Part shown: piece after piece, positions 9,571 to 47,128 of the stretch
Layout: every line of letters starts with the position of its first letter
Position numbering within the stretch: the stretch's first letter is position 1
Source: Bacteroidota bacterium
GTDB taxonomy: Bacteria; Bacteroidota; Bacteroidia; Chitinophagales; Saprospiraceae
Assembly (NCBI GenBank): GCA_030147525.1
Contig: JASBVF010000032.1
Coordinates: forward strand, 1-64,000
Length of the DNA: 64,000 nucleotides
Direction of reading: 5' to 3'
The notes under the pieces: model-generated
The model's input: only the letters and a program-made list of their open reading frames with translations
The model's database searches: none
What the model was told of the DNA's origin: nothing
Program-made: the position numbers and the translations under genes

Positions 9571-9676
9571 GAGAGAATGAATGAATGAGAGAATGAATGA
9601 ATGAGAGAATGTTCACGGTAAGTGTATTCCCTAATTCATTCATTCATCCATTCTATCATTTACTCATTTACTCATT
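9571..9676. repeat. Octad-periodic hairpin (GANNGAAT words) between tRNA genes
   Basis: The left arm is five exact 8-nt words: GAGAGAAT at 9571, 9587 and 9603 alternating with GAATGAAT at 9579 and 9595. The right arm is complementary in style: ATTCATTC (9634), ATTCATCC, ATTCTATC, ATTTACTC twice. It fills the spacer between tRNA-Pro and tRNA-Thr, so it would be in the precursor transcript if the two are co-transcribed. The same word family occurs at 22461 and 27028. Confidence 0.85.
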
Positions 9677-9683
9677 GCCAAAG

Positions 9684-9756
9684 AGCCACCCAGGAGACTC
9701 GAACTCCCGACCCACGCATTACGAATGCGTTGCTCTACCGGCTGAGCTAGGGTGGC
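9684..9756 (-). tRNA. tRNA-Thr (CGT)
   Basis: A 73-nt minus-strand cloverleaf: acceptor stem GCCACCC with GGGTGGC, D arm with AGCTCAGCCGGTAGAGC, anticodon stem ACGCA/TGCGT around TTCGTAA (anticodon CGT), T arm GGGAGTTCGAGTCTCC and discriminator U. CCA is not encoded. Confidence 0.95.
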
Positions 9757-9922
9757 GGAAATTTCAGCTGTTTCCGCTGCGTTCAGCGGCTCGCAAATTT
9801 ATAATATCTTCCTTCAGATTGCCAAAGCTGCTTTCAAATTTCTCGCCATATTTTACCACAAAAAAACCACTGCCCGAAGGCAATGGTTTCACACTCTTAA
9901 ACATTCTTATTAACAATATGGA

Positions 9923-10648
9923 CTATTTCGATCGTACGTCGCCGGAGCCGGTGATTTTTGATCTTACACTCGGTCTGCCTTTATAATAAACATCGCCGCT
10001 GCCAACTATGGCCACATCCAGTTGCTCTCTCACATTGACGGAGGAATCGCCGGAACCTGTGATTTTTACCGAACAGGAAGTAGCCTCAAGGTCAAAGGCT
10101 GAAATATCGCCGGAACCCGTGATTTTCATTTCACAGGCACCCGTAGTACCCTTGAGCTTTATATCCCCGGAGCCGCTGATCGAGACATCCATGGCTTTTG
10201 AACTGGACTCCAGCACGATGTCGCCGGAACCGGTTACCCATAGATCCAGGTTGCCCAGGTTGGTGAATTTTCCTTCACCGGTGACATTGCCGGAACCGCT
10301 TACACCAATTTTCCTGAGGTCGTCAACGGTGATCCAGATTTTGACGCCATCATGCCCCCGGACATTTTTATCAAAACCAATTTTCCAGGTACCATCCTTC
10401 ACGGCGGTTTCCAGGTTGTCGATGATATTTTGCTGGGCTTCAATTTTTACGGATTGCGGGCTACCCTGCCGCAGATAAACATCGGCGCTGATGCTTAGTG
10501 CAATTCCATCGAATGCATCAATGTTCAGGTTTTTCGTGACTTTGGGCCCCTGCCCTTTGATGCCGGCCCCCCAGTTTTGAGCGCCGGTAAATTGCACGGC
10601 TGTGACGGAGATGGCGAACAGCAAAACCAATATGCGGAATGATTTCAT
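9923..10648 (-). CDS. DUF2807 (GIN/head domain) secreted protein
   Basis: The 241-residue product has a signal peptide (cleavage near FTGAQ) and a right-handed parallel beta structure typical of DUF2807. From about residue 115 to the end, the motif GSGD or GSGN recurs seven or more times roughly every 20 residues (VSGSGNVTGEG, VTGSGDIVLES, ISGSGDIKLKG and so on), marking the turns of the coil. The opening block contains IDAFDGIALSISADVYLRQG, the usual family start. DUF2807 proteins are common exported proteins of Bacteroidota with unproven function, sometimes called putative auto-transporter adhesins. It is a single gene, separated from rlpA by a terminator. Confidence 0.9.
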   Translation of the reverse strand: MKSFRILVLLFAISVTAVQFTGAQNWGAGIKGQGPKVTKNLNIDAFDGIALSISADVYLRQGSPQSVKIEAQQNIIDNLETAVKDGTWKIGFDKNVRGHDGVKIWITVDDLRKIGVSGSGNVTGEGKFTNLGNLDLWVTGSGDIVLESSSKAMDVSISGSGDIKLKGTTGACEMKITGSGDISAFDLEATSCSVKITGSGDSSVNVREQLDVAIVGSGDVYYKGRPSVRSKITGSGDVRSK

Positions 10649-10744
10649 GTTGAAAGATTTTGGTGAAAAATATTTACGGTAACAAAGACATGGGATTGGA
10701 CGGCGGGTTGCCTGAACCTGTTACAGGAATTGAATTATTTTTAA

Positions 10745-10785
10745 CAAAAAAAGGCTCGTCTTGTGCAGACGAACCTTTTTTTTGG
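10745..10785 (-). terminator. Intrinsic terminator of the rlpA-like gene
   Basis: On the minus strand GGTTCGTCT and AGACGAGCC pair (one G-U) around a short loop, followed by TTTTTTT. A-rich sequence on the other side would also allow reverse use. Confidence 0.85.
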
Positions 10786-10801
10786 TTGAGAAAATGGTTT
10801 G

Positions 10802-11719
10802 TTATTCATTGCTGAGCGTGGAAAGATCGACCACAAAACCATCCATCTTCTTGTTTTTCTTCAGATTGGCTTTGTAAACGTTCGCCTCAGCTTCTGTGGC
10901 AAAAGTTCCAAGGATTACCTTGTAAAGCATTTCGTTCTTTTTCCCTTTCTGCACACTGACCAGGATGGTCGAGAACCAATCTCCCTGCAGGTCAGCCATT
11001 TTTTTGAAAAGGGCATCCTGCGTTGTCAAAGCTGCAACCTGAACGCCAAAACCTTTTTTCTCCGGGCGCTTCAGCTCGATTTGGTAAAGGTCGTAGGGCT
11101 GGTAATCCGATCCTTTCACAAGCACGGGCTCTGATAAAACAACCGGCTCGGCCTTGGCTTTGGTGGCGGCCTTTTCAGGTTTGGTATTCACCCTGGCAGT
11201 CTCTTTTTTGGCGTCGGCAGCTTTGGCGGTGGTTGCCGGACTGGTTTCAGCCGGTGCTTTAGTCACGGGTTTTTCAGGCTTTGAAGTTACAGCCTCCGGT
11301 TCCTGCGTGTAGGTTTTCGGAGTGGTTGCAGGCGGGGTGGTTACAACAGCGGGCTCCTCTTTTGCCTTTTCACTTACGACCTCAACTTTAACCCTTGCAG
11401 ACCCATCGTTGATGAGATCGACCTGGCTTGCAGCAGCTCTCGACAGCTCGATGACACGGCCGCTGATGAAAGGGCCACGGTCTGTTACCCGAACCTGTAC
11501 GGATTTATTATTGTCCAGGCGGGTTACTTTTACCAGCGTTCCAAATGGCAGGGTTTTATGTGCAGCGGTGAGTTTTCCTTTGTCATACAATTCGCCACTG
11601 GCGGTCGGTTTTCCGTGAAATAGGTCGGAATAGTATGATGCCAATCCAAACTCCTCCTGTGAAAACAGACCGGCAACGAATAAAATGTTTAAAATGATAA
11701 TACTTGCAAAACGTTTCAT
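10802..11719 (-). CDS. rlpA: RlpA-family septal ring protein with SPOR domain
   Basis: The 305-residue protein has a signal peptide (MKRFASIIILNILFVAGLFSQ), a double-psi beta-barrel (about residues 24-110; GLASYYSDLFHGKPTASGE, then HKTLPFGTLVKVTRLDN, then VTDRGPF and IELSRAAA), a low-complexity Ala/Lys/Pro/Thr linker (about 115-215) and a C-terminal SPOR domain (GFGVQVAALTTQDALF to the end). RlpA proteins are lytic transglycosylases or structural partners acting on denuded peptidoglycan at division sites, which SPOR binds. The start at 11719 gives the signal peptide; an upstream ATG at 11770 only adds a charged 17-residue tail in front of it. Confidence 0.9.
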   Translation of the reverse strand: MKRFASIIILNILFVAGLFSQEEFGLASYYSDLFHGKPTASGELYDKGKLTAAHKTLPFGTLVKVTRLDNNKSVQVRVTDRGPFISGRVIELSRAAASQVDLINDGSARVKVEVVSEKAKEEPAVVTTPPATTPKTYTQEPEAVTSKPEKPVTKAPAETSPATTAKAADAKKETARVNTKPEKAATKAKAEPVVLSEPVLVKGSDYQPYDLYQIELKRPEKKGFGVQVAALTTQDALFKKMADLQGDWFSTILVSVQKGKKNEMLYKVILGTFATEAEANVYKANLKKNKKMDGFVVDLSTLSNE

Positions 11720-11882
11720 GACAGCATGTTTGGTGATAAAATTAGGTTTAAAAAGGTTTTCTTCGTCCAAATGTACTACTTAATTCACTTACACTCAACG
11801 CAAAAACTTTCTCAATTATGCCCTGTCATTAAACTTTACCTGATTCTGAGGCATTCTTCTGAACCAACGCTGGCCAAAGTTG

Positions 11883-11890
11883 TACCTTTG
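11883..11890 (+). promoter_or_regulatory. Bacteroidota -7 box TACCTTTG for mnmA
   Basis: TACCTTTG matches the TAnnTTTG consensus and continues as CAG, as at other boxes in this window. No clear TTG lies 19-21 nt upstream, so the -33 element is weak. It would give a leader of about 150 nt for mnmA. Confidence 0.45.
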
Positions 11891-11926
11891 CAGTAGTTGT
11901 ATTTATTTATACTGACACACGGATAG

Positions 11927-12006
11927 TTTTGGCTTTTTGCGATTTGCAGCCAGCCTTTTGACATTGGAGCCGGCCAACAGCTAATAGCCAAAAGCTGACA
12001 GCGGTC
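11927..12006. repeat. Heptad-periodic hairpin (GCCAAAA/GCTAATA words)
   Basis: The left arm reads TTTTGGC (11927), TTTTTGC (11934), GATTTGC (11941). The right arm reads GCCAACA (11973), GCTAATA (11980), GCCAAAA (11987), GCTGACA (11994). The same words build the element at 20694-20765, and their complements appear at 43650. Confidence 0.8.
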
Positions 12007-12050
12007 ATTATAACTAACGGAAGTTTTCAGAATCATAATTTTTTTAGAAG

Positions 12051-13139
12051 ATGAGTAAGCATGGGAGAGTATTGGTCGCCATGAGCGGCGGAATTGATAG
12101 CACAGTGACGGCGATGCTGATGCATGAAGAAGGCTACGAAGTGGTAGGTATTACCATGAAAACCTGGGACTACGCTTCATCCGGCGGTTCTTCAAAGGAA
12201 ACCGGCTGCTGTAGCCTCGACTCCATCAACGACGCTCGCCGGGTGGCTGTTGACATGGGTTTTCATCATTTTATCGTGGATATCAGGGAAGAGTTCGGCG
12301 ACTACGTGATCGACAATTTCGTGGACGAGTACCTCGCAGGCCGCACGCCCAATCCCTGCGTTTTGTGCAACACGCACATCAAGTGGAATTCTCTTTTGAA
12401 ACGGGCCGATGCGCTCGATTGTGAGTTTATCGCCACCGGCCATTATGCCATCATCAAGGAGCATGAAGGACGCCGGTATGTCAAACGTGCTGTCGACCGG
12501 AACAAAGATCAGTCGTACGTGCTTTGGGGGCTGAGCCAGGAGTGTCTGGAAAGAAGCAGGTTTCCGTTGGGTGAGCTGACGAAACCCGAAGTGAGGCAAA
12601 TTGCTTTCGACCGTGGCTACGCTGAACTTTCGAAAAAAAGCGAAAGCTATGAAATCTGCTTCGTCCCTGACAACGACTACCGGGGCTTCCTCAAGCGCCG
12701 GGTGGACGGGCTGGAAGAGCGGGTGGCAGGCGGCCATTTCGTCAGCACTTCCGGTGAGGTGCTGGGCGAGCACAAAGGTTATCCGTTTTACACCATTGGT
12801 CAGCGGAAAGGGCTGGGCCTTGCATTCGGCCAGCCGATGTTCGTAACGGAAATCCGACCCGAAACCAACACTGTGGTGCTGGGTACGGAGGATCAATTGA
12901 TCCGCAACAGCATGAAAGTCGGGCAAGTGAATGTCATGAAATACGCCGAAATACCCGACGGGCTGGAAGCCGTTACCAAAATCAGATACCGTGACAACGG
13001 AACTTTCAGCACCCTGCACAACCAAAATGGAGAGGTGAAAGTGGAGTTTCTGGCCAATGTGAAAGGCGTAGCCCCCGGTCAGTCCGCCGTATTTTACGAA
13101 GAAGACGACGTCATCGGCGGAGGCATCATTTACCGGTAG
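12051..13139 (+). CDS. mnmA: tRNA-specific 2-thiouridylase MnmA
   Basis: The 362-residue enzyme inserts sulfur at C2 of the wobble uridine in Lys, Glu and Gln tRNAs. The PP-loop motif SGGIDS is at residues 12-17. The two catalytic cysteines are visible in NPCVLCNTHIK (about residue 105) and ICFVPDNDYRGF (about 203). TGHYA and DRNKDQSYVLWGL are the family's tRNA and ATP contacts, and the C-terminal beta-barrel ends in GGGIIYR. Length is normal. It is followed 22 bp later by a lipoprotein and rimM on the same strand, so the three may form one operon of translation-related genes. Confidence 0.97.
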   Translation: MSKHGRVLVAMSGGIDSTVTAMLMHEEGYEVVGITMKTWDYASSGGSSKETGCCSLDSINDARRVAVDMGFHHFIVDIREEFGDYVIDNFVDEYLAGRTPNPCVLCNTHIKWNSLLKRADALDCEFIATGHYAIIKEHEGRRYVKRAVDRNKDQSYVLWGLSQECLERSRFPLGELTKPEVRQIAFDRGYAELSKKSESYEICFVPDNDYRGFLKRRVDGLEERVAGGHFVSTSGEVLGEHKGYPFYTIGQRKGLGLAFGQPMFVTEIRPETNTVVLGTEDQLIRNSMKVGQVNVMKYAEIPDGLEAVTKIRYRDNGTFSTLHNQNGEVKVEFLANVKGVAPGQSAVFYEEDDVIGGGIIYR

Positions 13140-13161
13140 CATTAACTTCAAGTTTTGTTTT

Positions 13162-14423: not shown

Positions 14424-14424
14424 A

Positions 14425-17835: not shown

Positions 17836-17840
17836 ATTTT

Positions 17841-17923
17841 AACTAAGAACTATGAACGGCGAACCATGAACTTTTACACCTGAATTTTACAGACACCGGC
17901 TTGTTATTCATCGTTCATCGTTT
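17841..17923. repeat. Heptad-periodic hairpin (GAACNNN words)
   Basis: The left arm reads GAACTAT (17847), GAACGGC (17854), GAACCAT (17861), GAACTTT (17868). The right arm reads GTTATTC (17903), ATCGTTC (17910), ATCGTTT (17917). It fills most of the spacer between uppP and truB. Related words are at 19134 and 33883. Confidence 0.75.
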
Positions 17924-17938
17924 AAATTTAATCAAGTG

Positions 17939-18733: not shown

Positions 18734-18736
18734 GGT

Positions 18737-19093: not shown

Positions 19094-19133
19094 TTCATTG
19101 AATGGTTATGGCCGCAAAGGTCGTTTTTTTAAT

Positions 19134-19232
19134 GATGAACGATGAATGCTGAACGATGAATTTTTTTCATGCGTCGATTTGTCGCTGAATTTTAACAGAA
19201 TACACCGGTACGCTCAGATCGTTCATTGGTTC
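19134..19232. repeat. Heptad-periodic element (GATGAAC words)
   Basis: The words GATGAAC (19134), GATGAAT (19141), GCTGAAC (19148) and GATGAAT (19155) are followed about 60 nt later by the partial reverse complement GATCGTTCATTGGTTCA (19216-19232). It lies between ftsX and the DUF3098 gene. Confidence 0.7.
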
Positions 19233-20142: not shown

Positions 20143-20177
20143 GCCGTTGGCTGATTGACTGTTGACTGTTGGCCGGA
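20143..20177. repeat. Heptad-periodic run (GACTGTT words)
   Basis: The words GCCGTTG (20143), GCTGATT (20150), GACTGTT (20157 and 20164) and GGCCGGA (20171) follow each other without gaps between ftsX and the coiled-coil gene. No clear facing arm is seen. Confidence 0.55.
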
Positions 20178-20670: not shown

Positions 20671-20693
20671 GAAAGTATTGATTTGTTGCATTT

Positions 20694-20766
20694 GGCTATT
20701 TGCCTTGGGTTATTTGCTGTTTGCAAAAAGCAAACGGCCAACAGCCAAAAGCTAATAGCCAAAAGC
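20694..20766. repeat. Heptad-periodic hairpin (GCCAAAA/GCTAATA words)
   Basis: The left arm reads GGCTATT (20694), TGCCTTG, GGTTATT, TGCTGTT. The right arm reads GCAAACG (20730), GCCAACA (20737), GCCAAAA (20744), GCTAATA (20751), GCCAAAA (20758). It spans nearly the whole spacer between the 5'-nucleotidase stop and the next gene. Words are shared with 11973-12000. Confidence 0.85.
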
Positions 20767-20773
20767 ATTAACA

Positions 20774-22402: not shown

Positions 22403-22460
22403 GTTGAATTTTTTTTGGCTTTATCAAAAGTACCCAGATTTTCTAATTTTACTTTTCAAT

Positions 22461-22547
22461 GAGTGAATGATAGTATGATAGAATGAATGAATATTTCAAA
22501 GCAGCGCCTCACATTCACTCATTTCATCATTCAATCATTCTATCATT
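22461..22547. repeat. Octad-periodic hairpin (GANNGAAT words) upstream of acetoacetyl-CoA synthetase
   Basis: The left arm is GAGTGAAT (22461), GATAGTAT, GATAGAAT, GAATGAAT. The right arm is ATTCACTC (22513), ATTTCATC, ATTCAATC, ATTCTATC (22537). The right arm ends 12 bases before the start codon at 22560, so it occupies the position of the leader. Confidence 0.85.
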
Positions 22548-22559
22548 AAAATAAATACC

Positions 22560-24560
22560 ATGCTCTGGCAGCCCTCAACTGAATTTATCCAAAACTCCCA
22601 CCTGCGCCGTTACTTCGAATGGATGTCGCAAAACTACAATTTGAAATTTCAAAACTACCATGAAGCCTGGCAATGGTCGGTAGAAAATATCCCCGATTTC
22701 TGGGAAAGCATCTGGAAATATTTCAAAGTCATTTCTCACAGCCCCTACCGGCAGGTTTTATCCGGTGAAATGCCCACGGCCAAATGGTTTGAAGGTGCAA
22801 CGCTGAACTACGCCGAGCACATCTTCCGCATGGCAGATAACGAGCGTACCGCCATTATTTTTTCATCGGAAAGACACGACCTGATCGAAATCAGCTGGCC
22901 GGAACTGCACAGCCAGGTCGCATCCATGGCTGCCTATCTGAAAGAGATTGGCGTGGAAAAGGGCGACCGGGTAGCTGCCTATTTACCCAACATCCCCGAA
23001 GCGACCATCGCTTTCCTCGCTGCCTCTTCCATCGGCGCTATCTGGTCGAGTTGCTCGCCGGACTTTGGCGCCAACAGCGTCATCGACCGTTTTGCCCAGA
23101 TCGAACCCAAAGTGCTTTTCGCCGTGGATGGCTACACTTACAACGGTAAACCGTTTGACAAAAAACAGGTGGTGAGTGAATTGTGTGAAAAATTACCCAC
23201 TATCCAGCAGGTCATCCTGATCCCGTATTTAAACAGTGAAACCCAGCCTCACGCAATTGCCCCCCAATCACCAGTCACCAATCACCAATCACCCCGTCTG
23301 ACCGGATCATCCGGGCAGGCAATCATCACCCTCTGGAACAACACCTTCCGCCACTCCCAAACCCTCACTTTCGAGCCGGTGCCTTTCGATCATCCGATTT
23401 ACGTGCTGTACTCCTCCGGCACGACGGGCATTCCGAAGGCCATTACGCACTCGCACGGCGGGAATCTTTTGGAGCATCTGAAATACCTACACTTTCATAA
23501 TGACGTGCATCCCGGCGAGCGCTTTTTCTGGTTCAGCACCACGGGCTGGATGATGTGGAACTTCGTCAACGCCAGCTTTCTGGCAGGCGCTACGGTTGTG
23601 TTGTTCGACGGCAGCCCCGGCTACCCTGACCTTAATCGCCTTTGGGATTTTACCGAAAAAGCCCGCATCACGCACTTCGGCACGAGCGCCCCGTTCCTTA
23701 CAGCCTGCATGAAACAGGGCATTGCTCCCGGCAAGGATTTCGACCTTTCCGCACTGCGCAGCATTGGCTCCACTGGTTCGCCGCTGCCACCCGAAGCCTT
23801 TGCCTATGTTTATGATGAAATAAAAAAAGACCTCTGGCTCAGCTCCATGGCCGGCGGCACGGACGTCTGCACGGCCTGGGTGGGCGGTTGTCCCACGGAG
23901 CCGGTTTACAAGGGCGAAATTCAATGCCGCTGCCTCGGCGCAGCCATCGAGGCCTGGAACGAAGACGGCGAACCGGTGACGCAGGAGGTCGGCGAGCTGA
24001 TCGTGACGAAGCCCATGCCTTCCATGCCGGTTTTCTTTTGGGGCGATGAAAACAACGAGCGCTACCGCAGCAGTTATTTTGAAATGTACCCCGGCGTCTG
24101 GCGGCACGGCGACTGGATCGAGATCACAAATCACAACGGCATCGTCATCTATGGCCGATCAGACGCTACGCTCAACCGGGGCGGCGTACGCATCGGCACG
24201 GCGGAGATCTACCGGGCGATGGATAAGATTCCGGAGATCAAAGACAGCCTGATCGTGAGCATCGAGCAGGAAGGCGGCAGCGACTACATGCCGCTGTTTG
24301 TGGTGTTGAACGAGGATGTCGAGTTGACGGATGTTTTAAAAAAGAAGATAAAAACCACGCTCCGCTCGGAGTATTCGCCCCGCCACGTGCCGGACGAAAT
24401 CATCGTGGCGCCCGAGGTGCCTTACACGATCAGCGGGAAGAAGCTGGAAGCCCCGGTGAAGAAAATTCTGATGGGAAAACCTGTTGAGAAGGCAGCGAAT
24501 GTGGATTCGATGAAGAACCCGGAGAGTCTGGAGTTTTTTGTGGGGTTTGCGAAAAAATAA
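22560..24560 (+). CDS. Acetoacetate-CoA ligase
   Basis: The 666-residue enzyme of the ANL superfamily activates acetoacetate to acetoacetyl-CoA. An ACS-type N-terminal cap (YHEAWQWSVENIPDFWESIW) is followed by the AMP-binding core. The P-loop YSSGTTGIPKAITHSHGG is at about residues 285-302, with WFSTTGWMMWNF, the A5-like GSTGSPLPPEAF, and the C-terminal GRSDATLNRGGVRIGTAEIYR and TISGKKLEAPVKK (catalytic Lys). About 26 residues before the P-loop region (around 230-255; SPVTNHQSPRLTGSSGQ) look like an insertion. At DNA level they are a run of CCAATCA heptamers (23264-23298). The gene is preceded by an octad hairpin and followed directly by a GC-rich hairpin. Confidence 0.92.
   Translation: MLWQPSTEFIQNSHLRRYFEWMSQNYNLKFQNYHEAWQWSVENIPDFWESIWKYFKVISHSPYRQVLSGEMPTAKWFEGATLNYAEHIFRMADNERTAIIFSSERHDLIEISWPELHSQVASMAAYLKEIGVEKGDRVAAYLPNIPEATIAFLAASSIGAIWSSCSPDFGANSVIDRFAQIEPKVLFAVDGYTYNGKPFDKKQVVSELCEKLPTIQQVILIPYLNSETQPHAIAPQSPVTNHQSPRLTGSSGQAIITLWNNTFRHSQTLTFEPVPFDHPIYVLYSSGTTGIPKAITHSHGGNLLEHLKYLHFHNDVHPGERFFWFSTTGWMMWNFVNASFLAGATVVLFDGSPGYPDLNRLWDFTEKARITHFGTSAPFLTACMKQGIAPGKDFDLSALRSIGSTGSPLPPEAFAYVYDEIKKDLWLSSMAGGTDVCTAWVGGCPTEPVYKGEIQCRCLGAAIEAWNEDGEPVTQEVGELIVTKPMPSMPVFFWGDENNERYRSSYFEMYPGVWRHGDWIEITNHNGIVIYGRSDATLNRGGVRIGTAEIYRAMDKIPEIKDSLIVSIEQEGGSDYMPLFVVLNEDVELTDVLKKKIKTTLRSEYSPRHVPDEIIVAPEVPYTISGKKLEAPVKKILMGKPVEKAANVDSMKNPESLEFFVGFAKK
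23264..23298 (+). repeat. Heptad-periodic run inside the acetoacetate-CoA ligase gene
   Basis: CCAATCA at 23264, CCAGTCA at 23271, CCAATCA at 23278 and 23285, then CCCCGTC at 23292. The 7-nt period is out of phase with codons yet the frame stays open, encoding PQSPVTNHQSP. This is the only periodic element that I found within a gene body. Confidence 0.8.
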
Positions 24561-25505: not shown

Positions 25506-25513
25506 GGTTGTTT

Positions 25514-25624
25514 GATTGACGATGGACGATGGACGATTTTATATTTTCCGGGACTCATCCGATAACTTAGATCTTGGAGAAATCTAAAATCTAAAGTCGT
25601 TAATCATCAATCGTCAATCAAACA
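25514..25624. repeat. Heptad-periodic hairpin (GATGGAC words)
   Basis: The left arm is GATTGAC (25514), GATGGAC (25521 and 25528), GATTTTA (25535). The right arm is GTCGTTA (25596), ATCATCA (25603), ATCGTCA (25610), ATCAAAC (25617). The outer GTTGTTTGATTGACGAT of the left side is mirrored exactly at the right end. Confidence 0.8.
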
Positions 25625-25657
25625 ACAAACTTCAACAGAACCGAAGCCTGCCCGTAC

Positions 25658-26152: not shown

Positions 26153-26234
26153 GACAAGTAAATTTAGTATGTTCAAAAATGGTTTGATGTATTACTTGTC
26201 AAAGGTTTTAAAGCGGCGCAATGTTCAATTTATA

Positions 26235-26297
26235 GTGGAGAGTGGAGAGTTGATAGTGACTATCCGTTATACACTCTCCTCCATCCTCTATCCACTA
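26235..26297. repeat. Heptad-periodic hairpin (GTGGAGA words) overlapping the 3' end of the RluA-type gene
   Basis: The words run without a break: GTGGAGA (26235, 26242), GTTGATA, GTGACTA, TCCGTTA, TACACTC, TCCTCCA, TCCTCTA, TCCACTA (26291). The minus-strand stop codon at 26288-26290 lies inside the word TCCTCTA. Confidence 0.85.
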
Positions 26298-27020: not shown

Positions 27021-27110
27021 ATTCAATGAGTGAATGAGAGAATGAGTGAATGAGTGAATGAAGGATGCGTGCTAATTTCATTCATTCCATCATTCAGTCA
27101 TTCTCTCATT
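27021..27110. repeat. Octad-periodic hairpin (GAGTGAAT words) filling the rluA-ubiX spacer
   Basis: The left arm is GAGTGAAT (27028), GAGAGAAT (27036), GAGTGAAT (27044, 27052). The right arm is TTTCATTC (27076), ATTCCATC, ATTCAGTC, ATTCTCTC (27100). The element runs from the base next to the RluA-type start codon into the ubiX stop codon (27106-27108). Confidence 0.9.
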
Positions 27111-33882: not shown

Positions 33883-34015
33883 AAACGATAAATGTTGAAC
33901 GATGAATGTTGAACGAAGGCCCGGCAGTTTTGCCGGGCCTTCGTTTTTTAGAATAAAACCAAAATGGATTTTACTTTTGCTCCCGTTCATCATTCATCAT
34001 TCATAGTTCATAGTT
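33883..34015. repeat. Heptad-periodic hairpin enclosing a terminator (GAACGAT words)
   Basis: The left arm is AAACGAT (33883), AAATGTT, GAACGAT, GAATGTT, GAACGAA (33911). The right arm is GTTCATC (33985), ATTCATC, ATTCATA, GTTCATA (34006), ending 3 bases before the purC start codon. A conventional terminator lies between the arms. Confidence 0.85.
33914..33950 (+). terminator. Terminator upstream of purC
   Basis: CGAAGGCCCGGCA and TGCCGGGCCTTCG form a 13-bp perfect stem with a 4-nt loop, followed by TTTTTT. Confidence 0.95.
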
Positions 34016-35738: not shown

Positions 35739-35871
35739 AATAAATTATTTTTGATTTATAAAAAGCCTGACTCGTAACCGAAGACAAACGGAGTTACAAA
35801 ATTTTCGGTCTTAAAATAGGAAAGCCGGTTGACTCACAATCTCATTTGCCCACAGAATAGCTTTATTTAAA

Positions 35872-35903
35872 GTAGGCAGGTTGGCCAGTAGGCCGGTAGG
35901 CAA
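35872..35903. repeat. Octad-periodic run (GTAGGCCG words)
   Basis: GTAGGCAG (35872), GTTGGCCA (35880), GTAGGCCG (35888), GTAGGCAA (35896). Single arm, in the spacer between sod and the queuosine-precursor transporter. The words match those at 1680-1711. Confidence 0.6.
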
Positions 35904-36821: not shown

Positions 36822-36909
36822 GGTTGGGGTTGAGAGAGGTTATTTAGGGTTGAGAAGGGTTAGCTGCACGCTTCTCAACCCTCTCACCCCTAATCAACTT
36901 CTCTCAACC
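36822..36909. repeat. Octad-periodic hairpin (GGTTGAGA words)
   Basis: The left arm is GGTTGGGG (36822), TTGAGAGA, GGTTATTT, AGGGTTGA, GAAGGGTT. The right arm is TTCTCAAC (36872), CCTCTCAC, CCCTAATC, AACTTCTC, TCAACC. It lies 12 bp upstream of the yhhQ start. Confidence 0.85.
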
Positions 36910-40556: not shown

Positions 40557-41516
40557 ATGATACAATTTGACTGGAGCGAAAAAATTCAACCCTGGGTTTA
40601 CAAAACCTGGCTCGAAAACAAAGGCGCTGATGTAAAAATTGCCGTCCTCGATACCGGCGTCGACCTCGCCCACCCTTCCCTCAACAGCCTGGATCAATTG
40701 GATCATAAAATCAATGCCGCCGTACCCGGTTTCGACCCCGACCGACTGCACGACTTTTGCAACGGCGACGTCACCGACCGCCATCAGCAGCGGGGGCATG
40801 GAACGCAATGCACCAGCATACTGTCGGCGCAGGCCGAAGGCGATAACGACCTGCAAGGTTTTATCAGCAAATCCGATATTTTTATCATCAAGGTCAACAC
40901 CGTCGATCACAAGTTTTTCCTGGTAAAAGACTTCCTGAAAGGGCTGGAAGCCGCCGCCAAACTGAAAGTGGACATCGTCATTTCCAGCGTCTGTTTTCCG
41001 AAGGAAGATGTTGAAGCGGAAAACATTCCACCGGCGGAGATCGACCGGGTTTTCACCTTGCTCCGCAATTCCGGCGCCGTGCTGTTCGCAGCCCTGCCCA
41101 ACACCTCGCTGCTGACGCCCTGGGCCGGTCTTGCCGCTGAAAACTTCCCGAATTACCGGCCGGAAGCGATCAACACGGGCGTGGTTTCAGAAAAAATTTT
41201 TAATAAAAGAAAAACGGAAATCGACCAGCAGCCGGATATCCATTTTATCGCCTCCGACCCCACCTGCGCTTTTTGTAAAATCAACAACGGATATGCCGTG
41301 GAAGCCGCCACCAGCAGTCACGCGGTGTACATGCTGGGCGGGGTCGCCGCTTTGTATATCGCCTCCATTAAAAGAAGAGAAAAAGAAGAATACGAACCCC
41401 GTGAACGCGACGACTTCCTGAAGGGACTCAGTCAGTTGTTTCAACCCCTGGCCACTGCAAACGGCTGGGATGCTTCGCAATTGACCTTGTTTAAAACGAA
41501 GGGAGTAGATGGGTAG
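40557..41516 (+). CDS. Subtilisin-like serine peptidase (S8), no signal peptide
   Basis: The 319-residue protein has the S8 catalytic triad: Asp in VLDTGVDLAHP (about residue 35), His in RGHGTQCTSIL (about 82) and Ser in EAATSSHAVYMLGGVAALYI (about 250, usually GTSMA). The oxyanion Asn is probably in ALPNTSLL. No signal peptide or pro-domain is present, so it is unusual among S8 enzymes in being apparently cytoplasmic. The last codons (GVDG, stop TAG) fall in an octad element. It lies upstream of the 41610 gene on the same strand. Confidence 0.85.
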   Translation: MIQFDWSEKIQPWVYKTWLENKGADVKIAVLDTGVDLAHPSLNSLDQLDHKINAAVPGFDPDRLHDFCNGDVTDRHQQRGHGTQCTSILSAQAEGDNDLQGFISKSDIFIIKVNTVDHKFFLVKDFLKGLEAAAKLKVDIVISSVCFPKEDVEAENIPPAEIDRVFTLLRNSGAVLFAALPNTSLLTPWAGLAAENFPNYRPEAINTGVVSEKIFNKRKTEIDQQPDIHFIASDPTCAFCKINNGYAVEAATSSHAVYMLGGVAALYIASIKRREKEEYEPRERDDFLKGLSQLFQPLATANGWDASQLTLFKTKGVDG

Positions 41517-41594
41517 ATGATTGGATGGTTAAAGGCTTTACGGCAAATGCTTTGAACCATCCAGCCACTCAACCATCCAGCCATCCAACCATTT
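41505..41594. repeat. Octad-periodic hairpin (GGATGG words) overlapping the subtilase stop
   Basis: The left arm is GTAGATGG (41505), GTAGATGA (41513), TTGGATGG (41521). The right arm is AACCATCC (41555), AGCCACTC, AACCATCC, AGCCATCC, AACCATTT (41587). The subtilase TAG at 41514-41516 is inside the second word. The right arm ends 16 bp before the next start codon. Confidence 0.85.
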
Positions 41595-41609
41595 AAAACT
41601 TCACAATTG

Positions 41610-43643
41610 ATGAAAACTTTCATACTATCCCTTCTGATCAGCAGCATGTTACCCATCGGCATAATGGCACAAAGCGCCTGGCTCGATGCCGGGGAACTGA
41701 ACAAATACCTGGAATTCAACCCTGCCCGCAACCGGGTCGAACTGGACAACTCCGTGGAGATAGACCCGGTGGCCATGTTGACCACCCTGCAGCGCTACTG
41801 CCCGGATGCCGTGATGCAGGACGGCGATTCCATCATCGTAGACCTTGATCTTTGTTTTAAAAACAACCCGTTCATCTCCATGCGCTCGTATGCGCAAAAG
41901 GGCCTGCCATTCAGTTATTCAAAAAACGTGGCGCCGCCTGCCAGGGATGCCATGTTCGAATCGGCCCCGGCAGCGCAGGGCGGTTCTTTTGTCACCAACC
42001 TGGCGGACGGGCTGGCCATGTTTCTCGTTCAACGGACGAAGGAAGAGTTGAATGCGGCCTTTTTTGACCGGCTTAAAAAGGTCATGAACAATCAGCCGAC
42101 CTTCAGGGCGCTGTTCCCTTCCACTTACAATCTGCTGTACATCATCGGCGATGAAATTTACAACTACAACGCTTATCTCGAAGCCCTGCGGGAAAGCTTC
42201 ACCAGGGACATGAAAACCCTGCCGTTGCAGGTGCGGGATTATTCAGTGAATACGAATTTTATTACAAAAGAAGAGTTCAGAATACTGACGGAAGACGTGC
42301 TGACGACGGCGCAGTTCATGATCGACGGCGAGGCGCCGCTGGATATTGTCGAGTACCTGTCCACCACAGCGGCGCTGCAAATCGACGAGCGCCGGGCCAG
42401 TATCAAAGACGAACCGGTGAGGAAAGGAGTGGAAAGTCTGGCGATGGGTCTGCGCACGCTGAACCTGTTTTCCAACTCGCTGCGGGTGCGTCAAACGGGA
42501 CAGACCTGGGCCACGACGAGGGCTATTTCCGATTCGCTGAAGGATGTTTCTTTCACCTATATATATCTGGGTTTGCTCTATCAGCAGGCGCCCGGCATTC
42601 AGTACAACGACACCGTTTCGCTGCAAAGCGTACTGAAGAAAATGCACGGCGCTACGCAGGCGCCGCTGTCTTTCCGCAATTACCTTGTTTCGCTGGCGCA
42701 AACCGGAAACCTGCTCGACGAAAGCATCAAAACGCTGAAGCAAAAAGTGGGGACGGAGCAAATCGTTTACGATGATTACTACCGTTTCGCTGATCTGATG
42801 TTTGATTTTCTGGATCAAATAGCCAATTTCAGAAAGCAGGTAGTTTTGCCCAACTGGAAGATAGAAAACGGCAAGCCCCTCGTCATCGGTCAGATCAACC
42901 TGCCCAACATTCAGGTGGAAAAGGTGGAGCAAAAGTTCCTGATCATCCTCCGGCAGGTGTACGAGCTGGAATTCAACATTCGCCAAAACCACTACACTTC
43001 CGCCGTCAACAACGTGGCGTTTCTGCTGAACGAGGTGCTGGAGGATGATTTCACTTTCAAAAAAGATTTCCTGCGCTACGCCAATTTCATGGCCACCGTT
43101 GCTGAGGCCCAGACTTCAGAAGACGTGGCTGCCGCCATCGATATGTTTGCCTTGCCACCGGGCAGCTCACGCCTGAAGAAACAGTCGCAGTTTTCCGTCT
43201 CGCTCAACTCTTACGGCGGCCTGGCTTACGGCTGGGAAAACGACGTGAACCCCGACGTGAACGAAGCTTTGGATAATAAGAACGTGCTGGCCACCTCTGC
43301 GCCCGTGGGTATCGGCCTCAACTTCGGCATTCCCCGGAACAGCAGCAGCATCAGCCTTTACACGCAGCTGATCGACGTGGGAGCCATCTTTGCCTATCGA
43401 TTTTCGGATCAAACGGAGCGCATACCGGAGATCAAATTTGAAAACATCATCGCACCGGGCTTTTATGCCATTTATGGTTTTGGAAAAAACATTCCGGTCT
43501 CCGCAGGCGTCGGCGCACAATTAGGCCCCAACCTCCGCAAAATCGACCCCTCCGCCGGACTATCCGTAGATGAAACGAGCGCCTGGCGCTTCGGATTTAT
43601 TTTATCGGTCGATATTCCCATCACGCATTTTTATACGAAGTAA
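41610..43643 (+). CDS. Large secreted hypothetical protein with barrel-like C-terminus
   Basis: The 677-residue protein has a signal peptide (MKTFILSLLISSMLPIGIMAQ). Residues 40-520 are largely helical and not recognised (for example FVTNLADGLAMFLVQRTKEEL, ITKEEFRILTEDVLTTAQFM). The last 150 residues have barrel-like strands (FSVSLNSYGGLAYGWEND, GIGLNFGIPRNSSSISLYTQ, ending FGFILSVDIPITHF). This suggests a helical periplasmic body with an outer-membrane domain. It starts at ATG 41610; TTG 41607 is also in frame. Confidence 0.75.
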   Translation: MKTFILSLLISSMLPIGIMAQSAWLDAGELNKYLEFNPARNRVELDNSVEIDPVAMLTTLQRYCPDAVMQDGDSIIVDLDLCFKNNPFISMRSYAQKGLPFSYSKNVAPPARDAMFESAPAAQGGSFVTNLADGLAMFLVQRTKEELNAAFFDRLKKVMNNQPTFRALFPSTYNLLYIIGDEIYNYNAYLEALRESFTRDMKTLPLQVRDYSVNTNFITKEEFRILTEDVLTTAQFMIDGEAPLDIVEYLSTTAALQIDERRASIKDEPVRKGVESLAMGLRTLNLFSNSLRVRQTGQTWATTRAISDSLKDVSFTYIYLGLLYQQAPGIQYNDTVSLQSVLKKMHGATQAPLSFRNYLVSLAQTGNLLDESIKTLKQKVGTEQIVYDDYYRFADLMFDFLDQIANFRKQVVLPNWKIENGKPLVIGQINLPNIQVEKVEQKFLIILRQVYELEFNIRQNHYTSAVNNVAFLLNEVLEDDFTFKKDFLRYANFMATVAEAQTSEDVAAAIDMFALPPGSSRLKKQSQFSVSLNSYGGLAYGWENDVNPDVNEALDNKNVLATSAPVGIGLNFGIPRNSSSISLYTQLIDVGAIFAYRFSDQTERIPEIKFENIIAPGFYAIYGFGKNIPVSAGVGAQLGPNLRKIDPSAGLSVDETSAWRFGFILSVDIPITHFYTK

Positions 43644-43649
43644 AATGGC

Positions 43650-43730
43650 GGTTGGCTTTTTGCTATTGGCGGTTGGCTAAAAGCCCACCAAACCCTTCAA
43701 ACCCCTCTAACCAATCAAACCAATCATTTT
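43650..43730. repeat. Heptad-periodic element (GGTTGGC words)
   Basis: The left arm is GGTTGGC (43650), TTTTTGC, TATTGGC, GGTTGGC, TAAAAGC (43678), complementary in style to the GCCAAAA/GCTAATA family. A C-rich partner (AAACCC, CCAATCAAACC) follows to about 43725 but pairs only loosely. Confidence 0.65.
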
Positions 43731-43789
43731 CCCCCAAATTATTTCCAAAAAACCCGAATATTTGCGCCAGAAAATAAAACCGAATTCAA

Positions 43790-44728
43790 ATGTTCAAACC
43801 AATCGCTCAAACTACCTCCCATCTTTTGATGGTACGCCCGGCCAACTTTCGATTCAATGAGGAAACAGCCGAAAACAATGCATTTCAGACCGACGACGGC
43901 TCCATGAGCAATGCGGAGCTCCGTGAGGCAGCCAAGGTAGAATTTGATGCATTCGTTGAAAAACTCCGGGCCGTCGGAATTGACGTTACCGTGGCAGAAG
44001 ATACAGCACTACCCGTGAAGCCCGACGCTGTATTTCCCAACAACTGGGTCACTTTTCACCAGGACGGCACCGTGGTCACCTATCCGATGTTTGCTACGGC
44101 AAGGAGGCTTGAGCGTCGGGCGGACATCCTTGAAAAAATTCAGGATAGATTCCGGGTGGAACGTAAAATTCAACTGGAAGAATACGAAACCATCGACCAG
44201 TACCTCGAAGGCACCGGCAGCATGATCATCGACCGGCCCAACAAACTGGTGTACGCCTGCCTGAGCCCTCGCACAACGCTGGATTTGTTGCAGCGTTTCT
44301 GCAAATTAATGAATTACGAAGCCGTACCGTTTCACGCCACCGATCAGGACGGTATTGAAATCTATCACACCAACGTGATGATGGCTTTGGGTGAAACCTT
44401 CGTCGTCATCTGCTTCGACACCGTGGTCAATGCCACTGAAAAAGCCCTGCTCCAGCAGAAATTCACGCAAACGAACAAGGAAGTCATTGAGATTTCACAT
44501 CATCAAATGATGAACTTCGCCGGCAATATGCTGCAGGTAAAAAACAAAAAAGGCGAAACCTATCTCGTCATGTCGGAGCAGGCCTACAAATCGCTGGAAG
44601 CCCAGCAAATCTCCAAAATCCTCCGGCACACCAATATTCTTTACAGTCCGATTCCTACCATCGAGACCTACGGCGGCGGCAGTGCGCGGTGTATGTTGGC
44701 GGAGATATTTTTACCGGAAAAGGGGTGA
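43790..44728 (+). CDS. ctlX: Citrulline hydrolase-like amidinotransferase family protein CtlX
   Basis: The 312-residue protein belongs to the guanidino-group modifying (amidinotransferase/pentein) superfamily. Catalytic residues are visible: Asp/Glu region in DAVFPNNWVTFHQDGTVV, His in EISHHQMMNFAGNMLQV and nucleophile Cys in YGGGSARCMLAEIF near the C-terminus. The CtlX subfamily was linked to citrulline or arginine catabolism; that assignment comes from family knowledge. Arginine-pathway genes are not adjacent. Confidence 0.88.
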   Translation: MFKPIAQTTSHLLMVRPANFRFNEETAENNAFQTDDGSMSNAELREAAKVEFDAFVEKLRAVGIDVTVAEDTALPVKPDAVFPNNWVTFHQDGTVVTYPMFATARRLERRADILEKIQDRFRVERKIQLEEYETIDQYLEGTGSMIIDRPNKLVYACLSPRTTLDLLQRFCKLMNYEAVPFHATDQDGIEIYHTNVMMALGETFVVICFDTVVNATEKALLQQKFTQTNKEVIEISHHQMMNFAGNMLQVKNKKGETYLVMSEQAYKSLEAQQISKILRHTNILYSPIPTIETYGGGSARCMLAEIFLPEKG

Positions 44729-44737
44729 GGTTTTGTT

Positions 44738-44775
44738 GAAATTGGGATATTGATGGATATTATGAAATTGGGTGG
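44738..44775. repeat. Octad-periodic run (GAAATTGG words)
   Basis: GAAATTGG (44738), GATATTGA (44746), TGGATATT (44754), ATGAAATT (44762), GGGTGG. Single arm directly after ctlX. Confidence 0.45.
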
Positions 44776-45148
44776 CTGCCTAATTATGAAAGCAGCAGGT
44801 GACTTTCGGCCCATGAACATTTGGCGTAGAGCAACGCCCCTTGCCGTCACCGACCCTTCTCATCACCCTACCCTACCTGACGAATATCACACAAAACACC
44901 TGCGATACGTCATTTCATCCGGCCAGTAAAAACGATATATTCCGGCAGTAAAACCTGCCTCTCTCCTGCCTCTTCTCTATCCTCAACCTTGATCATCCGA
45001 AACACAGCACGCCCGGCCCGCAAACCTGCCTCTTGCCAGCAAAGAATGATAGCTCTCATTTAACTCCTCAACTCATGGCAAGGTAATCACCCGCAGCGGA
45101 GCGCCAAAGCCGCTTTTTCCCAAGTAGGCAACTTCAAAATGAACTACA
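44776..45148. other. Intergenic region, nothing recognised
   Basis: About 370 bp, pyrimidine-rich on the plus strand (CCTGCCTCTCTCCTGCCTCT and similar). No gene, RNA or clear dyad is seen other than a small GCGG...CCGC hairpin near 45097. Confidence 0.4.
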
Positions 45149-47020
45149 ATGAAAAAACTGATTTTGAAAGGACTGATGCTTCTGCTGATCGCAGCGGGCA
45201 CGTTTGTCTCCTGCCAAAAAGATCTGCACGAAGCAGCTTCTGATGTGGTGTCTGCTTCCAAATACACCAGCCTGACGCTAAACGACAACTTCGACTTACC
45301 CGACCCGGCCGCTTCCGAGCAATACGCCCTGCGGCTGTTCGAACTGAAAGAAGACAGCGATGGCCTGACGGAAAAGGAATTACTTTCCGTTGGCGATCCC
45401 ACACAAAATGAAGATCTGGTGTACGCCCTCCTGTTTGTGGAGGCTTACGACCGGGATGAAATTCTCTGGAGTTGGGATGAGCCTGCCGTTTCAGACAATG
45501 AAACCGGCGACCGTTCCTACAATGGCGCCTGGAAATGGACCGGTGGCGATCCTATCGCTTCAATGTACGCCAGTGGTTTTAAAAAGTGGCCTGCTTACCA
45601 GGTAAAAAATCGCTTTCAGGACCCCTGCGGCGAAATCATCAAATCCGGACCGGTTTACCAGATTTGTTACAACCTCTGCGACGGCAACCTGCCCGGACCC
45701 TGCCAGACCGGCGCTTACAAGCAGGCGGTACTGAACAAAATTATCGACGACGCACCCGTTAACCCCTACTCCATTGCGAAGCAACTGCTGAACCAAAGCG
45801 GCTGGACGCAAACTGCGAATGTAAACCTGGCGACTACGCCGGTCAGCCTGATGAATTTTGAAAGAAAGACCGTCAGTGGCAACATCGCATACTATACCTT
45901 TGAAGTGTCCGTCGGTACGGACCCGAATGACAAAATCGCCCTTCACAGAGTGGTGAAAGAAACCGCACCCAACAAGCCCATCAACACCGGCAAAGTGCTG
46001 TTCTTACAGCCGGGCGACCACACCCGGTTTATGAGTTTCGCCATGCCGGGATATTATTCCGGCGCTAATCCGGCTGACTTTGGTCTTGCTGTTTTTATGG
46101 CAAAAAACGATGTGGACGTCTGGGGAATTGACCAGGCCTGGGGGCTTCTTCCTGAAGCTACGCCCGCATTTGGGTTCATGAAAGAATGGGGCCTCGGTAA
46201 AAACATGACCGACCTTCGCACGGGCATGGCCGTTGCGAGAGTTACCCGTTACCTGACCATGAATTACTTTGACCGCATGACGCTCGCAGGATGGAGCGGC
46301 GGAGGCATCACCGGTTTCGCTGCCATCAATCACGAAACACAACTCGACCAGGATGTGCGCCATGCGAAGAATTACATCGTACTGGATATTACCGCCAAAA
46401 CCAACCACCCGGCTTACCGGAATGCCCGCATCAACGAAGTACAAACCAACCTTGGATTGTGGAACGGAGGAACCTACCAGGAGCATGTTTTCTTTGCAAC
46501 CCTTGGGTTCCTTGCCGTCAATGATCCCGGCGGCAATTCGCCATTTTTTCCGGGCTTCACGAATGAACAAACTGCCATGTTCGGCGGCATCATTCAGTGG
46601 TACGCCCCGATCCCGTTCCACTACATGGCCGGTGTTTTTGAGAACAACATGCCGGTCGGTTTCCAATTCGTCAAAAAAGCGCAGTGGTTCGATTACATGA
46701 CGACGCTCGCTCCATACCTGCCAACGAAATACCTTGTTGACAGGAGTAATTTCATCAGTGAATTCACCGATTCACCGTTTGACGATCACTTGGGGAAAGT
46801 CAGGCTGCCGATTCTCAATGTTGCACCGGCAGGCGGCTTTGGAGACCTGACCATGTTTGGTTTCACCAAAATGCCCAAAGCCGAAGTCACACACCTGATG
46901 CCGTCGTTCATGCCGCCTCATCTTGCCATGATTGACTACGGGCACATCGACCTGTTTCTGGCAAACAATGCTGAAACTACCGTTTGGCAGCCCATGTTAG
47001 ACTGGCTGAAGCAGCATTGA
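45149..47020 (+). CDS. Alpha/beta hydrolase lipoprotein
   Basis: The 623-residue lipoprotein (lipobox LIAAGTFVSC) has an N-terminal region of about 270 residues with several cysteines (DPCGEIIKSGPVYQICYNLC) and a C-terminal alpha/beta hydrolase domain. The oxyanion strand is KVLFLQPGDHTRF, the nucleophile elbow LAGWSGGGITG with the Ser at about residue 385, and the likely catalytic His near IDYGHIDLFLA. The substrate is unknown. It may be a surface esterase or lipase. It stands alone and is followed by a terminator. Confidence 0.85.
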   Translation: MKKLILKGLMLLLIAAGTFVSCQKDLHEAASDVVSASKYTSLTLNDNFDLPDPAASEQYALRLFELKEDSDGLTEKELLSVGDPTQNEDLVYALLFVEAYDRDEILWSWDEPAVSDNETGDRSYNGAWKWTGGDPIASMYASGFKKWPAYQVKNRFQDPCGEIIKSGPVYQICYNLCDGNLPGPCQTGAYKQAVLNKIIDDAPVNPYSIAKQLLNQSGWTQTANVNLATTPVSLMNFERKTVSGNIAYYTFEVSVGTDPNDKIALHRVVKETAPNKPINTGKVLFLQPGDHTRFMSFAMPGYYSGANPADFGLAVFMAKNDVDVWGIDQAWGLLPEATPAFGFMKEWGLGKNMTDLRTGMAVARVTRYLTMNYFDRMTLAGWSGGGITGFAAINHETQLDQDVRHAKNYIVLDITAKTNHPAYRNARINEVQTNLGLWNGGTYQEHVFFATLGFLAVNDPGGNSPFFPGFTNEQTAMFGGIIQWYAPIPFHYMAGVFENNMPVGFQFVKKAQWFDYMTTLAPYLPTKYLVDRSNFISEFTDSPFDDHLGKVRLPILNVAPAGGFGDLTMFGFTKMPKAEVTHLMPSFMPPHLAMIDYGHIDLFLANNAETTVWQPMLDWLKQH

Positions 47021-47050
47021 TGAAATCTAGTTAAACCCCACATACAGGCA

Positions 47051-47083
47051 GCGGCCTCCCGGAGCGGGAGGCCGTTTTTTTTT
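47051..47083 (+). terminator. Terminator after the alpha/beta hydrolase
   Basis: CGGCCTCCC and GGGAGGCCG form a 9-bp stem around GGAGC, followed by T9. Confidence 0.95.
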
Positions 47084-47128
47084 AAAGTTGAGGAGATTGA
47101 AAAAGTTAAGCGCTCAACCTCCTCAACC
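47084..47128. repeat. Octad-periodic hairpin (AAAGTTGA words)
   Basis: AAAGTTGA (47084), GGAGATTG (47092), AAAAAGTT (47100), then the facing arm CGCTCAACCTCCTCAACC (47111-47128). A short member lying between convergent genes. Confidence 0.65.

Follow-up and report, generated by a model that had tools for sequence, protein, structure and literature searches.

STRR repeats of cyanobacteria are tandem heptanucleotides dispersed through intergenic DNA, while REP/BIME sequences are extragenic inverted repeats that lie soon after stop codons and are said to act as bidirectional 3′-end or mRNA-protecting elements. Here we describe arrays of short words in the intergenic spacers of a Bacteroidota bacterium of the family Saprospiraceae (GCA_030147525.1; 7.08 Mb in 59 contigs), starting from the first 64 kb of contig JASBVF010000032.1, a stretch of 64,000 nt that we call the window.

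Two published systems provide the main points of reference. The (GGGANTN)n / GGGGA(C/T)T heptamers of Xanthomonas and Nostoc are intergenic and consist mostly of four units with fixed and variable positions; in the available portions of that paper, the G-strand points away from the gene edge and into the spacer (it is the coding strand past stops and the non-coding strand before starts), few repeats lie between divergent genes, two Xanthomonas genomes hold 70 and 75 convergent inverted pairs, most repeats lie between the same genes in two species, and no function was found (PMC4692102). These portions discuss the heptamers mainly through G-quadruplexes and also mention the heptanucleotides of Calothrix. 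TAACTGA direct repeats of Beggiatoaceae, Cyanobacteria and five Bacteroidetes are intergenic heptamer arrays as well, with strain-specific positions, other heptamers mixed in and, according to the accessible text, a location mostly immediately upstream of start codons (PMC4679880).

The arrays reported here have a period of 7-10 nt, words with a fixed core and variable columns, a polarity and a position that follow the neighbouring gene edges, fast turnover among relatives and, in two families, arms that are independent of each other. We tentatively propose that they are fast-turnover, non-coding intergenic repeats that would arise from a polar process at the DNA level, with later selection for placements that do no harm and, possibly, some recruitment at 3′ ends.

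Word arrays are periodic and intergenic

The initial annotation of the window described twenty spacers with a strict 7- or 8-nt period, most with a facing arm of reverse-complement words. We scored self-matches at the claimed lag over a 141-nt stretch against 500 dinucleotide shuffles and recovered the period at 16 of the 20 loci (p at most 0.006), the failures being 1680 (p 0.18), 36822 (p 0.48), 44738 (p 0.16) and 47084 (p 0.998). Two of these four, 36822 (29/33 bp) and 47084 (13/14 bp), do form hairpins but lack a strict period, and at 43650 a period of 9 fits better than lag 7 (score 21 vs 11). A facing arm, taken as a hairpin score of at least 11, is found at 13 of the 20 loci (7542, 9571, 11927, 17847, 20694, 22461, 25514, 26235, 27028, 33883, 36822, 41505 and 47084) and is weak or absent at six others (9267, 19134, 20143, 35872, 43650 and 44738).

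We extended the analysis to 864 kb and then to 1.66 of the 7.08 Mb of the genome, window included, using stretches drawn from contigs already known to hold octad or heptad matches and genes called by a home-made script (547 spacers, 111 kb of spacer and 674 kb of coding sequence in the 864-kb set). The autocorrelation check that the annotation had suggested gave, in the 864 kb, an excess over shuffled spacers of z 9.7 at lag 7 and z 12.5 at lag 8. Lags 4 (z 16.3) and 3 (z 7.8) exceed the shuffles as well, yet they give no runs of 14 matches in 16; such dense runs reach 1.33, 2.51, 1.06, 1.75 and 0.83 per kb of spacer at lags 7, 8, 14, 16 and 21, and 0.067 per kb of coding sequence at lag 7. 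Counted as arrays (T at least 11), the spacers of this set hold 34, 50, 10 and 3 at lags 7, 8, 9 and 10, compared with 0.4, 0.4, 0 and 0 in shuffled spacers, and 0, 1, 0 and 1 at lags 5, 6, 11 and 12. Thus 84 arrays of 7 or 8 nt lie in 111 kb of spacer (0.8 in shuffles) and nine in 674 kb of coding sequence, where the counts are nine at lag 7, none at lag 8 and nine at lag 9, the last being expected because nine is a multiple of three. The excess at lags 7 and 8 is therefore real and far from equal in coding sequence, so that the claim survives the refuting condition stated in the annotation, and the class is wider than first stated: the 205 arrays found in this genome comprise 67 of period 7, 113 of period 8, 19 of period 9 and 6 of period 10.

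As the annotation had supposed, the class is defined by its architecture and not by one sequence, with many cores sharing one anatomy. The largest families have the octad core GAATGA with two variable columns and the heptad core ATGAA with mainly YG; further octad cores are GTAGGC+NN, GGATTG+NN and GGTTTG+NN. An arm contains three to five heptads or four to six octads, mostly four or five words. On the whole, we regard the original observation as partly confirmed and its interpretation as partly supported.

Polarity and position follow gene edges

Hairpins were scored in spacers of 25-350 nt, with thresholds that differ between analyses. Within the 1.66 Mb, 100 of 938 such spacers contain a periodic hairpin, and in 91 of the 100 the 5′ arm is the one with G over C, whichever strand is read (nine are reversed). 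The same polarity is seen in single arrays: after exclusion of weakly skewed arrays, and with both arms of an element counted separately, the G-strand points inward from the nearest gene edge in 156 of 182 arrays, namely 114/132 with a facing arm and 42/50 without a detectable one. Unpaired arrays in same-direction spacers (n=32) divide into 14 G-sense and 5 C-sense nearer the stop, and 12 C-sense and 1 G-sense nearer the start. Because the rule fits stops and starts alike, polarity follows gene edges and not transcription. Moreover, because arrays without a facing arm have the same polarity, the hairpin may be secondary, which weakens the case for an RNA hairpin as the unit, one of the possibilities initially raised.

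Elements are found beside stop codons and take up much of tight spacers. Those between same-direction genes start at a median of 2 nt past the stop, with 72% beginning within 7 nt of it, and end at a median of 16.5 nt ahead of the next start. The spacer remaining outside the element is 12 nt in convergent, 22.5 nt in same-direction and 86.5 nt in divergent gaps, compared with array-free spacers of 73, 95 and 176 nt.

This placement is what might be expected of functional 3′-end elements, that is, long imperfect RNA hairpins on both strands that would end transcription bidirectionally or protect mRNA, replacing intrinsic terminators. Hairpin frequency climbs with the number of stops facing the spacer, from 10/151 divergent through 68/649 same-direction to 22/138 convergent gaps (trend z 2.55; divergent vs convergent p 0.014), and terminator-like sites are scarcer with an element than without one (2/22 vs 34/116 convergent and 2/68 vs 48/581 same-direction spacers; Mantel-Haenszel odds ratio 0.29, z -2.48, classes pooled). 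However, neither class by itself reaches significance for terminator-like sites (p 0.06 and 0.15), elements still occupy 6.6% of divergent spacers, and arrays counted in the first 864 kb show no clear orientation difference (9/67 convergent, 52/330 same-direction, 8/68 divergent). Furthermore, arrays without a facing arm exist, the variable bases of the arms are unpaired and most elements are not kept in relatives, as described below. A 3′-end function as the basis of the class is therefore a possibility that we consider unlikely, if a serious one. The ordinary terminators initially noticed at several loci are present at a few, but overall terminator-like sites are scarcer beside elements.

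Two simpler identities were rejected. Intrinsic terminators, with a GC-rich stem and a T-run behind genes, do not fit, since terminator-like sites are rare in element spacers and elements also lie between divergent genes. Nor do three-frame stop cassettes: C-poor arms contain 354 stops, against 280 in mononucleotide and 306 in dinucleotide shuffles, but the excess comes only through TGA (239 vs 86 expected), with TAG (47 vs 87) and TAA (68 vs 107) both below expectation.

Arms are independent in two families and elements turn over quickly

Fold-back copying is rejected for the two main families because the variable bases of their arms are not complementary. In-register agreement is 0.596 in 18 heptad elements (0.612 shuffled) and 0.444 in nine octad elements (0.409 shuffled, register 0), and in other registers it stays within two standard deviations. 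Word sets are as alike within as between heptad elements (0.611 vs 0.608, P 0.46) and weakly alike within octad elements (0.324 vs 0.244; P 0.10 by Jaccard, 0.06 by shared fraction); the octad test uses this genome alone and excludes reused arms, a restriction under which an earlier apparent sharing shrank. In both families neighbouring words are no more alike than chance (heptad 0.184 vs 0.267 shuffled, octad 0.311 vs 0.309), and this, like the independent arms, speaks against fold-back and simple slippage. Shuffling heptad loops leaves their likeness to one another no lower. On balance, the arm data oppose slippage, fold-back and copy-paste as simple accounts, and also selected pairing at the variable columns. 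The slippage-plus-foldback origin suggested at the outset thus lacks support in the two main families and is possible for a minority with order-specific stems, to which we return below.

Elements are mostly missing from the same spacers of relatives, which indicates fast turnover. Between relatives G003 and G005 (median 85% protein identity), 28 shared spacers include one with arrays in both and three with arrays in one only. This genome shares 21 spacers with G003 (arrays in both at one, here only at four, in G003 only at three) and 19 with G005 (one, four and one, respectively). In each of the three shared-array cases a different period was fitted to the two genomes, and similar words were seen for the G003 and G005 pair alone. 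Two spacers with lengths of 86 and 82 nt in this genome measure 6 and 21 nt, respectively, in G003; the spacer holding the array at 20146-20171 is 108 nt here vs 7 and 10 nt in two same-genus genomes, and that holding the element at 27024-27110 is 86 nt here, whereas two same-genus genomes have 6 nt. An empty site is most evident behind a 5′-nucleotidase gene, where the spacer is 21 nt in G003 and 128 nt in G005, where an element directly follows the stop codon.

The anatomy is also seen in wider samples. Among ten genomes of the same genus or family, nine yielded 21 hairpins in all, every one of the usual polarity, and the tenth had none; stretches L180-L188 of relatives were chosen around octad matches, so that densities in relatives are biased. 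Among named loci, 27 of 223 spacers from Saprospiraceae-like records contain hairpins of other words, 22 of the 27 with the usual polarity, compared with 4 of 384 spacers in the remaining named loci; the split was made by record title, with titles giving only Bacteroidetes or Chitinophagales placed in the former group, and two loci of the sample (L077 and L171) are the same contig. The triple octad GANNGAATx3 is patchy: it is present in 11 of 59 relatives, one of which, from another genus, has 299 matches, but a search of 13 same-genus genomes found none in 8 of them. A scan of 295 other Bacteroidota genomes found plain AATGATG arrays in 13 (reversed-pattern control in 3), with a facing arm at none of the 11 loci inspected.

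Several individual loci were also recorded. Octad arrays with facing arms are present in a Thermoanaerobaculia metagenome-assembled genome (L088, CACGGAGG) and in the same-genus genome G008 (L179, CGCAAAGG), both of which hold arrays such as CACGGAG and CGCAAAG, words that may recur in other phyla. At L018, positions 1497 and 1619, the same octad array and its next 50 nt occur twice, 122 nt apart, as a local duplication. In L175 (G010:C391), spacers near 2000 and 6400 carry another kind of hairpin repeat, which combines CCCCAGCGGGGC cores with a long inverted repeat and has no relation to the word arrays.

The length differences between genomes, which look like insertions into a given spacer, together with regular outer borders and phase, might suggest a mobile or dispersed hairpin of the MITE/REP type, moved by a transposase such as Y1/RAYT, whose families would be old subfamilies with worn-out loops; the genome does have four Y1_Tnp matches. 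Within the main families, though, full-length matches among the 54 elements compared reach only about 77-82% identity, as shared words predict, and different elements do not have their words in a common order (42 vs 36.1, sd 5.9, and 4 vs 3.1, sd 1.4). Y1_Tnp is not discriminating because 32 of 39 relatives also have one, and it was set aside as evidence. We think mobility of this kind improbable.

Words keep a core and vary at fixed columns

Within arrays, substitutions cluster in the same columns (168 vs 79.5, sd 8.2; z 10.8) when unique words of 79 arrays are counted with no word prior; the adjacency rule of the array finder slightly favours this clustering. The leading GA that had been noticed as held while other positions vary is thus one case of a general rule. 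Octad arms begin with YAATGA in 27 of 43 cases and with GAATGA in 13, and heptad arms have AA at -3 and -4 in 37-39 of 46.

Fixed cores beside free columns are also what would be seen if a DNA- or RNA-binding protein recognised a site at every step of 7-10 nt, with the core as the site and the variable columns as spacers; independent arms would fit, as would the retention of one core by one family throughout the genome (72 matches to GANNGAATx3, none to the reversed pattern). Against such sites stand the number of cores without any relation to one another, the presence of four periods within a single genome and the patchiness of the octad family, missing from 8 of 13 same-genus genomes as noted above. 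A DNA-binding array, as had been envisaged, is possible, but a single binder is unlikely because there are many cores in one genome, and we judge the binding account as a whole quite improbable.

A strand-polar process may generate the arrays

Of the readings considered we prefer, at somewhat less than even odds, a generating process over a bound factor as the cause; this is inferred from the features above, as is any role at 3′ ends. The basic unit would be one array of about four or five words of 7-10 nt, C-poor on the strand leading inward from the closest gene edge. Two such arrays, one per side, would stand opposite one another with a short loop between them, which gives the look of a hairpin. 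A strand-polar process acting on DNA may build outward from preserved gene edges, in or into tight spacers, and later selection would retain arrays that leave stop and start codons intact. Arrays may replace intrinsic terminators where the gap is convergent or lies between same-direction genes. Arm independence and polarity offer concrete tests of a generating process versus a bound factor. With about a tenth of the sampled spacers affected, both here and in the Saprospiraceae-like named loci, the arrays shape intergenic evolution and can confuse terminator and RNA annotation.

Several points weigh against this proposal. No enzyme or process behind the arrays was identified, and fixed cores with free columns could equally be selected binding sites. 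Columns that show two or more distinct variants occur no more often than expected by chance (38 vs 33.8, sd 4.4), and some of the clustering may therefore reflect a single variant spread from word to word; across all arrays, adjacent words differ by 1.46 and distant words by 1.73, a pattern expected of slippage but also favoured by the array finder. Unpaired arrays may be what is left of former pairs; if so, their polarity adds no evidence to that of the hairpins. Among octad loops, 4 of 36 pairs share at least 7 nt vs none when shuffled, in part through array letters counted as loop. Finally, a minority of elements (9-nt ACGGATT, CGCAGATT, CACATAAG and long GATTTTT stems) have arms complementary in word order, one pair sharing 88 nt at 88.6% with the loop included. 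This minority was picked by hairpin score, which favours in-order pairing, and its members with 9-nt units or long GATTTTT stems are treated here as ordinary dispersed inverted repeats. The CGCAGATT hairpins at C25:179435 and C56:21700 of this genome (in L049 and L062) have 9-nt units, a shared loop and reverse G/C polarity, and are a different, copy-type repeat.

Rho-utilisation arrays, in which the G-poor 3′ arm would present YC steps each 7-9 nt on both strands, a spacing that matches the step length of Rho, are very unlikely. The 3′ arm is indeed 29% C and 8% G, and the C-over-G bubble is 10.6 vs 7.6 in other same-direction spacers. However, the 14 G-sense arrays among the 19 unpaired ones near stops would leave a sense RNA without a C-array, all 32 unpaired same-direction arrays are near even (17 C, 15 G), and a facing arm would mask the C-arm; Rho sites were rejected as the identity on the wrong sense-strand sign of those 14.

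Least probable of all, to the point of being remote, is a telomerase-like enzyme that would write arrays de novo from a degenerate template by extending DNA 3′ ends at spacer breaks with C-poor words: independent extension of both break ends before joining would give a G-arm then a C-arm with the same core and unrelated variable bases, together with a regular phase at start and end, word counts that are much the same, loci that are not copies of one another and genome-specific lexicons, but the genome has a single PF00078 (reverse transcriptase) match with no octad or heptad words in the surrounding 3.7 kb, and reverse transcriptase was rejected as the array maker. The match itself (L248, G000:C33:143792-147466) is a 497-aa frame, possibly a defence reverse transcriptase, beside a frame that is metallopeptidase-like by eye.

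Elements and other features of the window

The elements of the window are collected in Table 1.

Table 1. Word arrays and hairpins in the 64-kb window (nt; pairs, facing base pairs of the two arms).
Element	Position	Arms	Strand	Pairing and period	Context
Two-armed octad, word GAAATTAG	7541-7611	7541-7575 / 7579-7611	.	31/33 pairs; lag-8 score 24	Convergent spacer; ordinary terminator alongside
Heptad array GATTATT/GATTTTT	9275-9299		.	Strong facing arm absent	
Two-armed octad, core GAATGA+NN	9568-9676	9568-9610 / 9634-9676	.	35/43 pairs	Between two tRNA genes
Two-armed heptad, GCCAANA/TTTTGGC family	11907-12013	11907-11947 / 11973-12013	.	30/40 pairs; lag-7 p 0.002	Divergent spacer
Two-armed heptad, core ATGAA+NN	17836-17927	17836-17856 / 17907-17927	.	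17/21 pairs; lag-7 p 0.002	Between TruB and BacA genes
Heptad array, core ATGAA+YG	19131-19161		.	Weak facing arm	
Heptad array TTGACTG	20146-20171		.	Clear facing arm absent	
Two-armed heptad GCCAANA	20687-20767	20687-20724 / 20730-20767	.	30/38 pairs	Fills spacer
Two-armed octad GAATGA+NN	22448-22555	22448-22492 / 22513-22555	.	36/43 pairs	Divergent spacer
Two-armed heptad GATGGAC/GATTGAC	25507-25626	25507-25547 / 25586-25626	.	35/41 pairs	
Two-armed heptad AGTGGAG	26232-26291	26232-26255 / 26268-26291	.	18/24 pairs	
Two-armed octad GAATGA+NN	27024-27110		.	29/33 pairs	Outermost array word coincides with last codons CAA TGA of minus-strand gene
Two-armed heptad ATGAA+NN	33884-34015	33884-33915 / 33984-34015	.	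25/32 pairs	Ordinary GC-rich intrinsic terminator within loop between the arms
Octad array GTAGGC+NN	35871-35901		.	Weak facing arm	
Hairpin, GGTTGAGA-like words	36828-36909	36828-36861 / 36877-36909	.	29/33 pairs; lag-8 p 0.48, no strict period	
Two-armed octad AACCATCC (GGATGGTT)	41506-41595	41506-41537 / 41563-41595	.	25/32 pairs	
Array, 9-nt unit AAACCCCTC fits better	43650-43726		.	Weak facing arm	
Hairpin, AGTTGAGG-like words	47087-47127		.	13/14 bp; without 8-nt period	Ordinary terminator precedes

Three other repeats lie in the same DNA. Between convergent genes at 1786-1834 there is a perfect, non-periodic 23-bp inverted repeat with a 3-nt loop, which is the hairpin detected, at 1790-1830, for locus 1680 and is separate from that locus. 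The heptad array CCAATCA/CCAGTCA at 23264-23293 lies inside an acetyl-CoA-synthetase-like coding sequence; coding sequence as a whole gave nine lag-7 arrays in 674 kb. At the left end of the window (1-1060), a 456-bp tandem repeat of two-and-a-bit copies lies in a long open frame. An Rfam scan of the window returned two tRNAs and no other family above the gathering score, and one window protein has its closest named relatives in Bacteroidetes and Saprospiraceae metagenome-assembled genomes (best 65-69% identity).

Comparison with known repeat systems

The heptanucleotide repeats of cyanobacteria, to which the arrays had initially been likened, are a good comparison: STRR and the arrays reported here are both intergenic tandems with heptanucleotide words, as judged by description and not by sequence, and in the partial literature covered we found no description of facing arms or octads for STRR. 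Like REP/BIME sequences, the elements lie close past stops, but the main families consist of families of words without a conserved element sequence, sharing words and not word order, and no clear link to a transposase was found; related copies of the REP/BIME kind are found in the 9-nt minority. The arrays resemble the TAACTGA repeats in being intergenic heptamers and differ in that, by the available text, the TAACTGA system uses one word, which is not among the listed array words of this genome. Our literature search, which left subscription papers uncovered, found no description of the class in Saprospiraceae, and literal word strings were also without a match.

A closer match than STRR, and one that the initial annotation did not name, is found in the Xanthomonas and Nostoc heptamers, convergent inverted pairs included. 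As far as the available portions of that paper go, they share with the arrays here a core with variable columns, about four units, facing pairs and an inward G-strand; scarcity between divergent genes is seen here in the hairpin count and not in the array count of the 864 kb. The arrays here differ in their many unrelated cores, their periods of 7-10 nt and their Bacteroidota host, and in that few array sites are common to relatives. They also differ in their GGG tracts: at least four GGG or CCC runs occur in 4 of 205 arrays, and four GG or CC runs in 60 of 205. G-quadruplexes were therefore rejected as a general basis, since words mostly without GGG leave them unable to be the general reason for the arrays, and the same anatomy in a distant phylum, built from words that mostly lack GGG runs, needs another cause. 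Therefore, with the GGG feature missing and period 7 only part of the range, we set the arrays apart from the Xanthomonas and Nostoc class, which is, by the portions available, the closest published class that we found (PMC4692102), and regard them as a related variant and not a member of it.

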